This document shows, piece by piece, positions 58,190 through 59,662 of a stretch of 64,000 nucleotides of DNA. Positions within the stretch are counted from its first letter, which is position 1; every line of letters begins with the position of its first letter. Location of the stretch: positions 248,001 through 312,000 of the forward strand of contig OZ024846.1 of the NCBI GenBank assembly GCA_964017145.1, in the 5' to 3' direction. The translations under genes and the position numbers were made by a program. Below the pieces are notes generated by a model. It did not search any database. It saw nothing but the letters and a program-made list of their open reading frames with translations, and was not told the origin of the DNA. Source of the stretch: Agrocybe praecox (lineage: Eukaryota; Basidiomycota; Agaricomycetes; Agaricales; Agrocybaceae).

Positions 58190-59662
58190 TTATATGTCTT
58201 CTTCTTCTTCGTCAGTGAGTTCATCTCCTTGTCGAAGACCTACGTGATTTTCTAAGCCTTCTCGTCTGGCCCACGAAAAGCCGTCAGTGTACGGGTTTAT
58301 ACGCAAGGGCACGAAGAGAGTAAGTATGGAGCTGTAACAATTAAATGAGAATTAGGGATGGGAACACGGTGCAACTGTAACGTACTAGCCATTGTCCCCG
58401 ATATTAAAGAAAAACTCGAAATTCTTCTTTTTCCTTTGAATAAATGCTCGTTAGAAAGGGTAATAAATTATTAGAAGAAACGTACCCTAAGTCGTAGGAA
58501 TTAATGAAATCCTGAAAAAATGTTAGAGGGGTATGTAGTTCCAGAATCTTCCAACACACCTCGTTCCGTGTCTTCGCCTTTTTGCGGTAATCTTCGTGAT
58601 CTTGAGCCTCAACAGTCGTCTCGCCCCAAGACACACCGTACAAGTGATATGACAACATGACTCCAACGGCAAAGCATAAAACTATACACAAAATGTAGGT
58701 CATCGCGAACATTATTTCAGGGACATGGTAATCCCATTTCTGTGCTTCTGTTAGCTGTGGCGAGTAGGAAAAATGAAGAGTTCGCACTTCGTATGTGACT
58801 CCAATGGAGTCAAAGAATTTTATGTATCCGGACAAGGAGAAACAGAATGTCGACAAGACAAGGTATGCCCTTAGTATTGTCCTATAAGTCGGCGTGTCAA
58901 TGAAGGCAAGAAGATAGGCTCACATGAACATTACAAAATGGCGCTCATTGTGTAACCCGACACATTGATTTATCCCTGCATATATCATGAGAAGAGAACT
59001 TTCTGGTCGTTTATATACTCACACTATATGAAAAAGTGAATTACTACACAGTATGGAATGAAAAACACAAAAGGCATACCGGACAGTGGTGGTCGTATTT
59101 TAGAACACATCTTTTGCATATCCGACAATGATGAGCCCTCTACAATTTATCAGGCAGAGAAAGGTAAACCACGACACAAAACACACCTCTGGCCGTTTCT
59201 GCTTGCATTTCAAGCAGTTTGTGTACGACGCTGGGGTAACTTTGATACCCCTGGACGTCCATCTCACCCCACCGGTCAATGCCTTTTGCTTTCCTTTACC
59301 ACTTCCCTTCTTTGCCCACAAGAACCCCGTTCTAGCTTCACGAGGTGGATCATCCACGAATCCCGGCGGAACAGTAACTACATAATAGTAGTGCATGATC
59401 AGATTCGTCGCAATAAGTATGCATATTGGGATTGTAAGAAGAGGATATGACAGTTCTAGGGCAATTACATCGACTATAAGATATATGTATATTAGCATCT
59501 TTTCATTGCCACTGAAAAAAACTACCCACAAAAACACACGACGCCCATGGAAATTAAAATGACTGCCAGTCCAACGAAGTAAGGTCCTGCTGCGCCGGTA
59601 ATGGCATTTCCCCACCTTTCAAGAGTCTTAAAGCAGCGAAATACGGTTCGCTGGCATACCAT
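58190..59662 (-). CDS. DHHC-type protein S-palmitoyltransferase (Pfa4-like)
   Basis: Exons (minus): 59662-59530, 59473-59187, 59139-59080, 59023 (one base), 58975-58924, 58881-58560, 58511-58486, 58433-58386, 58331-58190; 356 residues. The cysteine-rich domain reads [32 protein letters not shown], then N-E-R-H-F-V-M-F-M. The DHHC tetrad is residues 156-159, and its Cys forms the acyl-enzyme. Four transmembrane helices flank it, two before and two after. The C-terminus keeps the family's N-P-Y-D-L-G-like (N-S-Y-D-L-G), F-F-N-I-G-D-N-G and P-Y-T-D-G-F-S-W blocks. It attaches palmitate to cysteines of membrane proteins. Trp161 is encoded by T from a one-base exon plus GG from the next exon. Confidence 0.88.
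59023..59023 (-). other. Predicted single-nucleotide exon in the DHHC gene
   Basis: The base T (minus strand) lies between a 56-nt intron (59024-59079, GTATGC...CATATAG) and a 47-nt intron (58976-59022, GTGAGT...TATGCAG). Exon 3 ends ...TGT-CCG and exon 5 starts GG-ATA-AAT-CAA. Only insertion of this T gives C-P-W-I-N-Q-C. Removing everything as one intron gives CCG-GGA-TAA, a stop. Using only the first acceptor reads into a stop within 14 codons. Confidence 0.72.

Follow-up and report, generated by a model that had tools for sequence, protein, structure and literature searches.

A predicted one-nucleotide exon completes the tryptophan codon behind the DHHC motif in a palmitoyltransferase gene of the mushroom Agrocybe praecox

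Introduction

In the literature that we found, nuclear exons of a single nucleotide are described in detail for three genes, APC11, VPS55, and CYP621A. Here we describe a further candidate: a lone T at position 59023 on the minus strand of a 64,000-nucleotide (nt) stretch of Agrocybe praecox DNA (contig OZ024846.1, positions 248,001 to 312,000; in the following "the window"), which is predicted to form an exon of its own within a DHHC palmitoyltransferase gene.

The one-nucleotide exon of Arabidopsis APC11 resembles the present one in that a lone base, there an A, lies between AG and GT and is essential for the reading frame; it was demonstrated by complementary DNA (cDNA) and by mutation of the base in reporter constructs (PMC4674806). 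It differs in belonging to a plant gene and in its position within a 422-nt interval, 333 nt past the upstream junction (PMC4674806). The one-nucleotide microexons of APC11 and VPS55 are reported to be conserved across land plants, to be missing from reference annotations, and to be confirmed by RNA sequencing and reverse transcription PCR; for VPS55, transcripts with and without the base are described in several plants (PMC8831610). These cases concern plants and other genes, and they set a precedent for deep conservation of a one-base exon.

The closest fungal case is CYP621A of Fusarium, where, as here, one base lies in the codon of a conserved motif, the frame is otherwise broken, and the public gene models are wrong; the exon was confirmed by reads of the Sequence Read Archive (PMC12940212). 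That gene is an ascomycete P450 gene of Fusarium species, and its base is a G in a 139-nt interval (PMC12940212), whereas the present gene is a basidiomycete DHHC gene, its base is a T, and the exon is inferred for nine or more orders within one class. The authors regard CYP621A as the second known case and as the first one found in a fungal gene (PMC12940212), yet the VPS55 paper is earlier (PMC8831610). An earlier note on the window, made from the sequence alone, had called one-base exons very rarely documented and had cited plant APC11; that case is indeed known, but VPS55 and CYP621A add more than the note allowed for. The exon described here is not the first of its kind in a fungus, nor is it the first that is widely conserved, since CYP621A and the land-plant-wide APC11 and VPS55 exons precede it.

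Kindred arrangements are known from other systems. In the mitochondria of Ophiostoma and Ceratocystis, fungi as well, one base stands between adjacent introns, but these are self-splicing group II introns in ribosomal RNA genes and not spliceosomal ones (PMC12308204); mitochondrial one-nucleotide exons are also reported from placozoans (PMC5436844). The microexon of Trichoderma Xlr2 is likewise fungal, and its inclusion decides which protein is made; it is described as an alternative, glucose-dependent switch (PMC11121469). A plant microexon database covers exons of 1-15 nt (PMC12409088), and the 1-bp exons present in some annotations are described as experimentally unsupported in a 2011 comparative paper (PMC3064661). 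Among the literature matches listed, none dealt with a one-nucleotide exon in a DHHC gene or in mushrooms, most subscription journals and all bioRxiv preprints lying outside the search, and a search for DHHC palmitoyltransferase, basidiomycete, and exon found no papers.

Results

The gene and the junction that contains the lone base comprise the following features of the window:

58190..59662, minus strand: predicted DHHC palmitoyltransferase gene, 10 exons including the 1-nt exon, 336 amino acids, from ATG at 59662 to TAA at 58190
59080..59139, minus strand: exon 3, with K-Y-D-H-H-C-P at its end (TAC GAC CAC CAC TGT CCG)
59024..59079, minus strand: intron 3, GTATGC...CATATAG, 56 nt, GT-AG
59023..59023, minus strand: lone T, predicted to be an exon by itself and to open the tryptophan (Trp) codon TGG; DHHC-P-W-INQ is obtained by this one of 277 splicings and the W is matched in 22 of 22 transcript-like relatives
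58976..59022, minus strand: intron 4, GTGAGT...ATGCAG, 47 nt, GT-AG
58924..58975, minus strand: exon 5, starting GG ATA AAT CAA TGT GTC GGG, (W)INQC...

The earlier note had read the end of exon 3 (CCG), the donor GTATGC, the sequence CATATAG, the lone T, GTGAGT, and the GG at 58975 in the same way, and all of these are borne out in the sequence. It had also given the flanking introns as 56 and 47 nt and considered these sizes normal, which agrees with the nine introns of the gene (56, 47, 56, 47, 54, 48, 48, 52, and 54 nt). Left unsplit, the 104-nt interval would make an intron roughly double the length that is normal for this gene, whose introns measure 47-56 nt. The lone base lies between a canonical AG and a canonical GT, with introns of ordinary length on both sides, and it is needed for the frame and for the conserved motif. 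Spliced in this way, the gene model has an open frame from ATG to TAA, and P-W directly follows the DHHC catalytic motif in the predicted protein: DHHCPWINQCVG. We consider it highly probable that the T at 59023 is spliced in as a one-nucleotide exon that completes the Trp codon TGG behind DHHC-P.

To examine whether the lone T is needed, we took the segment from the first base of exon 3 to the last base of exon 5 and listed every way of removing one or two GT/GC-AG introns with a minimum length of 30 nt. This gave 277 splicings, and in 44 of them, among which is that with the T, the frame runs through to the normal stop; with GT donors only, the numbers are 157 and 26. DHHC-P-W-INQ results from the T-including splicing and from no other of the 277, so that the role ascribed to the T in the earlier note, restoration of the Trp after DHHCP, stands. 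Its statement that every other canonical splice gives a stop did not hold: 43 others are open, for example PVCLLW-INQ (GT donor) and PVW-INQ (GC donor), although all 43 are without that motif. Joining CCG directly to GG yields DHHCPG followed by a stop, a product of 161 amino acids. A profile built from 22 non-NCBI relatives alone (see below) scored the T exon with 593.7 bits, the GC-donor form PVW-INQ with 587.1, and the cryptic GT-donor form PVCLLW-INQ with 583.2; this margin is partly built in, because all 22 profile members read PW. The pattern AG-T-GTRNGY with at least 40 nt on both flanks arose in 96 of 20,000 dinucleotide shuffles of the 104-nt interval.

To compare relatives, we took the best 120 of several hundred matches from each of three protein searches, giving 255 distinct records with 140 Agaricomycete orthologues (P0001-P0140), whose class was taken from their names or, for unnamed ones, from the tree. 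Depending solely on whether NCBI was among the sources, these were divided into 118 NCBI gene models and 22 non-NCBI clusters; the protein clusters were formed at 90% identity and may conceal cDNA of the same species. Two Mycena records, P0171 (without DHHC) and P0195 (ending after DHHCPVRRL), were omitted from all counts; with P0195 the tally of deviating models given below would be 116 of 119. All 22 non-NCBI clusters have uninterrupted frames, and their longest contigs have 1,095-2,393 bases. These sequences are probably cDNA, because uninterrupted frames on such short contigs were found for a gene with nine introns.

All 22 transcript-like sequences contain DHHCPW, and none has an insertion at the junction. 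The 118 NCBI models read PW in 3 cases, PVR in 52, PG in 8, and PVW in 4; another 40 have some other insert between DHHC and NQC, 3 join DHHCP to CVG, 6 are otherwise broken, and 2 are without the core. DHHC-P-W-INQ is consequently missing from 115 of 118 models, at least 110 of which are altered within this junction. The check for conservation in related mushrooms that the earlier note had proposed is thereby answered at the protein level only. Models broken in length numbered 106 of 118 at this junction; at the positions of introns 1, 2, 5, 7, 8, and 9 of the A. praecox gene they numbered 0, 14, 3, 2, 8, and 2. The intron 6 junction, where 94 of the 118 models and 13 of the 22 transcript-like sequences differ in length, is not usable as a control because it is naturally variable. 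In models which from their names we take to be Tremellomycete, PW was present in 15 of 15, and there was no sign of a one-nucleotide exon in these 15. HHC-x-W was found in 97 of 98 further records of one search, other DHHC families included; P0215 is without such a motif.

Two groups among these NCBI models were noted. The eight with PG (P0007, P0021, P0025, P0027, P0035, P0075, P0087, and P0114) read DHHC-PG-[IV]NQ, which would need a GT-CA or similarly odd junction; possibly cDNA reads were fitted there by accepting a single mismatch where the T had been missed. Three of the six otherwise broken models (P0029, P0067, and P0078) read KYDHH-W[IV]NQ (DHH-WINQ or DHH-WVNQ) and have lost C and P, the catalytic Cys included, another way around the junction.

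Several of the deviating models can be decoded. PVR, the commonest error (52 of 118), is what results if a gene predictor shifts a GTNNGT donor by 4 nt downstream (CCN GTN N/GT) and joins it to GG, giving CCN GTA CGG or AGG; on this decoding the donor GT stands directly after CCN, the acceptor stands directly before GG, and one base is missing. PVW was decoded likewise with GTNTGT. The reading of P0061 (Mycena maculata), PCAYPSIAYDIALRYPGVNQ, fits removal of intron 3 together with read-through of T-GTGCGTAY..., a 45-nt intron 4, and the insert of P0137 (Marasmius) starts with PCTL, which is also compatible with a T-GTRNGY read-through. In P0129 (Gloeopeniophorella) and P0139 (Mycena indigotica), where the whole interval seems to be read through, AG-T-GTRNGY is possible at a single place each, dividing the interval into 52 + 47 nt and 47 + 46 nt, respectively. 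In Agrocybe pediades two separate models, P0001 (...LPFR-INQCVG) and P0008 (...LPFSGLINA), fit TTC-AG-T-GT and then an exon starting GG ATT AAT CAA TGC, GGATTAATCAATGC; the translations of this decoding were checked by computation. Genomic DNA of relatives was sought in one scan each of viral_contigs and genome_contigs, and these found none.

A tree was calculated from 164 sequences with the junction masked, leaving out the garbled P0008, P0011, P0016, P0054, P0119, and P0137. The gene studied here groups with that of Agrocybe pediades (support 0.993). The 22 transcript-like sequences are scattered in the Agaricomycete clade (support 0.929, outgroup-free), and most of them adjoin broken models: P0038 stands with Agaricus bisporus (PVR), P0036 with Piloderma (PVR), P0064 with two Boletus models (PVR and an insert), and P0121 and P0122 with Schizopora (PVR). 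By species lookup, one per order, broken models were assigned to Hymenochaetales, Russulales, Boletales, Polyporales, Gloeophyllales, Jaapiales, Atheliales, and Amylocorticiales; others belong to species that we take to be Agaricales. Auriculariales, Cantharellales, and Dacrymycetes were not recognised among the names of the matches listed. From these protein data the one-nucleotide exon is likely old within the Agaricomycetes and common to those sampled, in at least nine orders, and it has likely been missed in nearly all Agaricomycete gene models examined.

The remaining exons of the gene model are:

59530..59662, minus strand: exon 1
59187..59473, minus strand: exon 2
58788..58869, minus strand: exon 6, acceptor AAG/GGC
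58560..58739, minus strand: exon 7
58486..58511, minus strand: exon 8, 26 nt
58386..58433, minus strand: exon 9
58190..58331, minus strand: exon 10, stop codon TAA included

The acceptor AAG/GGC of exon 6 was chosen because relatives read FMAYL. A TAG acceptor of intron 5 (58881-58870, minus strand) lies 12 nt ahead of the acceptor implied by the relatives; if used, it would insert TILR without shifting the frame and give FMTILRAYL, possibly an alternative form of the protein. Intron 6 (58787-58740, minus strand; 48 nt) is without an in-frame stop and would add 16 residues if retained; this site is length-variable among relatives too.

The protein is predicted to be a member of the DHHC palmitoyltransferase family. 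Residues 130-251 match Pfam PF01529 with 111.6 bits (curated cut-off 28.7), a protein search found full-length relatives from Agrocybe, Galerina, and others, and an NCBIfam search with the predicted protein gave no match. In the 59-Mb assembly a DNA search gave a single match, the gene itself, and a family search found four further DHHC-family loci in the same genome. Three of these four have an unbroken Trp codon after the DHHC codons (CCT TGG, CCA TGG, and CAG TGG); the fourth (L004) has no DHHC motif within the fetched stretch. In the paralogous gene L002 (minus strand, about position 1563) an intron seems to lie right behind the Trp codon (CCATGG/GTACGT), near to but distinct from the position of the split at 59023, and L003 (minus strand, about position 1572) reads DHHCQW in place of DHHCPW.

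Discussion

Four other explanations of the junction were considered. A single intron with another donor would leave extra residues before the W, either PVW by a GC donor or PVCLLW by the cryptic downstream GT donor. Both forms are open here with the profile scores given above, and such donor shifts are used by database models of many species; against them stand the 22 transcript-like relatives free of insertions and the 15 Tremellomycete models with PW. Moreover, the cryptic donor GTGTTT is a poor one and GC donors are rare. These two, the best rivals, were rejected after splicing enumeration and profile scoring, and we regard a single intron of this kind as very improbable. Slightly less credible still is a stwintron, that is, two nested introns with no separate exon between them. 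Fungi are known to remove such introns consecutively, and like the present pair they are two short introns in one place whose distal joining leads to a frameshift; the difference is that in a stwintron a splice site of one intron is split by the other (PMC9024468). In the present case nothing breaks up the second donor, GTGAGT, which is intact, and the [D1,2] form (external donor made of the last G of CCG and TGTGA), when spliced in silico, runs into a stop after 169 residues and was rejected.

Both a sequencing or assembly error and a pseudogene were rejected after tests, and we give each of them hardly any credence. One missing base next to the donor or acceptor of a real intron of about 104 nt would be the simplest local edit, and because the locus was found once in the assembly there is no second copy for comparison. 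The same deficit, however, appears at the same place in models from many separately sequenced species, the site is outside any homopolymer, and the other introns of the gene have only 47-56 nt. Decay of the gene would agree with the stop that direct joining meets at once, but with the T a frame of 336 codons is intact and matches the family, and most models of relatives deviate at this same place.

A number of observations weigh against the one-nucleotide exon and have to be set beside the evidence for it. The cDNA status of the 22 sequences was deduced from contig size and open frames and is unstated by their source, and the closest compared pairs of a transcript-like sequence and a broken model are 82% identical and come from different species. 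Three NCBI models (P0014, P0058, and P0094) have a clean PW, which could mean that some species lost an intron or that these models were annotated correctly, and the nearest NCBI neighbour of the transcript-like P0074 is one of these, P0058. The fault is not specific to this junction in at least five of the 115 models that deviate (P0008, P0011, P0016, P0054, and P0119), because these are garbled over a wider stretch. As to the decoding, AG-T-GT in relatives was read by us from protein models only. Residue shuffles also allow the pattern, in 215 of 5,000 cases for P0129 and in 47 of 5,000 for P0139, and each of the two is therefore modest evidence alone. Among ten inserts, P0001, P0003, P0037, P0042, and P0118 allow no AG-T-GTRNGY and start unlike T-GTRNGY; apparently these five contain the interval incompletely. 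In P0140 the pattern is possible, but its first part would have only 20 nt, so this model must have cut something out. At the locus itself, the donor of intron 3 (GTATGC) ends in GC and the branch site is an imperfect match to CTRAY, the branch-site consensus. Finally, plain AGTGT occurred in 1,992 and AG-N-GT in 2,823 of 20,000 dinucleotide shuffles and is common by chance. The bare pentamer AGTGT is weak evidence; the case is carried by the frame, the motif, and the relatives.

If the T is an exon, introns 3 and 4 would be removed in succession, since it is implausible that the machineries of acceptor and donor find room on one base at the same time. Removal of intron 3 first would leave CCG-T/GTGAGT, removal of intron 4 first ATATAG/TGG; in silico, both orders gave an identical messenger RNA. 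At the ratchet points of recursive splicing, too, an acceptor lies beside a donor and the two are used stepwise, with AG/GT and no base between, whereas here one base would be kept. Skipping of the T would cut the protein off at DHHCPG. Functional constraint on the Trp may be the reason why the arrangement persists. The conserved Trp158 of human DHHC20, which stands two residues past the motif, is described as a gate of the acyl-chain cavity in simulations (PMC9105814), and the DHHCPW of the relative P0009 aligns with that of the human DHHC20 chain 6bmm.

The ordinary intron length of both halves suggests that the exon originated by gain of an intron one base away from an older one. For Fusarium CYP621A, by comparison, the authors propose that an AG-N-GT present by chance within a long intron provided a rescue (PMC12940212). 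A wider scenario, which we hold to be evenly balanced between true and false, is that the exon had a single origin in an early ancestor of the Agaricomycetes, probably through gain of a second intron one base from an existing one, and was kept through the mushroom radiation, where it supplies the first base of a Trp codon next to the active site. As skipping of the T cuts the enzyme off right behind DHHC, the exon could then act as an all-or-nothing splicing switch of palmitoylation.

For gene annotation, the locus exposes a systematic error, 115 of the 118 sampled public Agaricomycete models being without the DHHC-P-W-INQ core. If the prediction is true, a one-nucleotide exon would be present in another fungal phylum beyond that of Fusarium. 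As the protein evidence spreads over at least nine mushroom orders, species that can be cultivated would be open to a detailed study of the exon. Fungi would thereby offer a test of a long-standing question, namely by what means the spliceosome recognises an exon that has no room for binding on its two sides, and whether the answer lies in the order in which the introns are removed.
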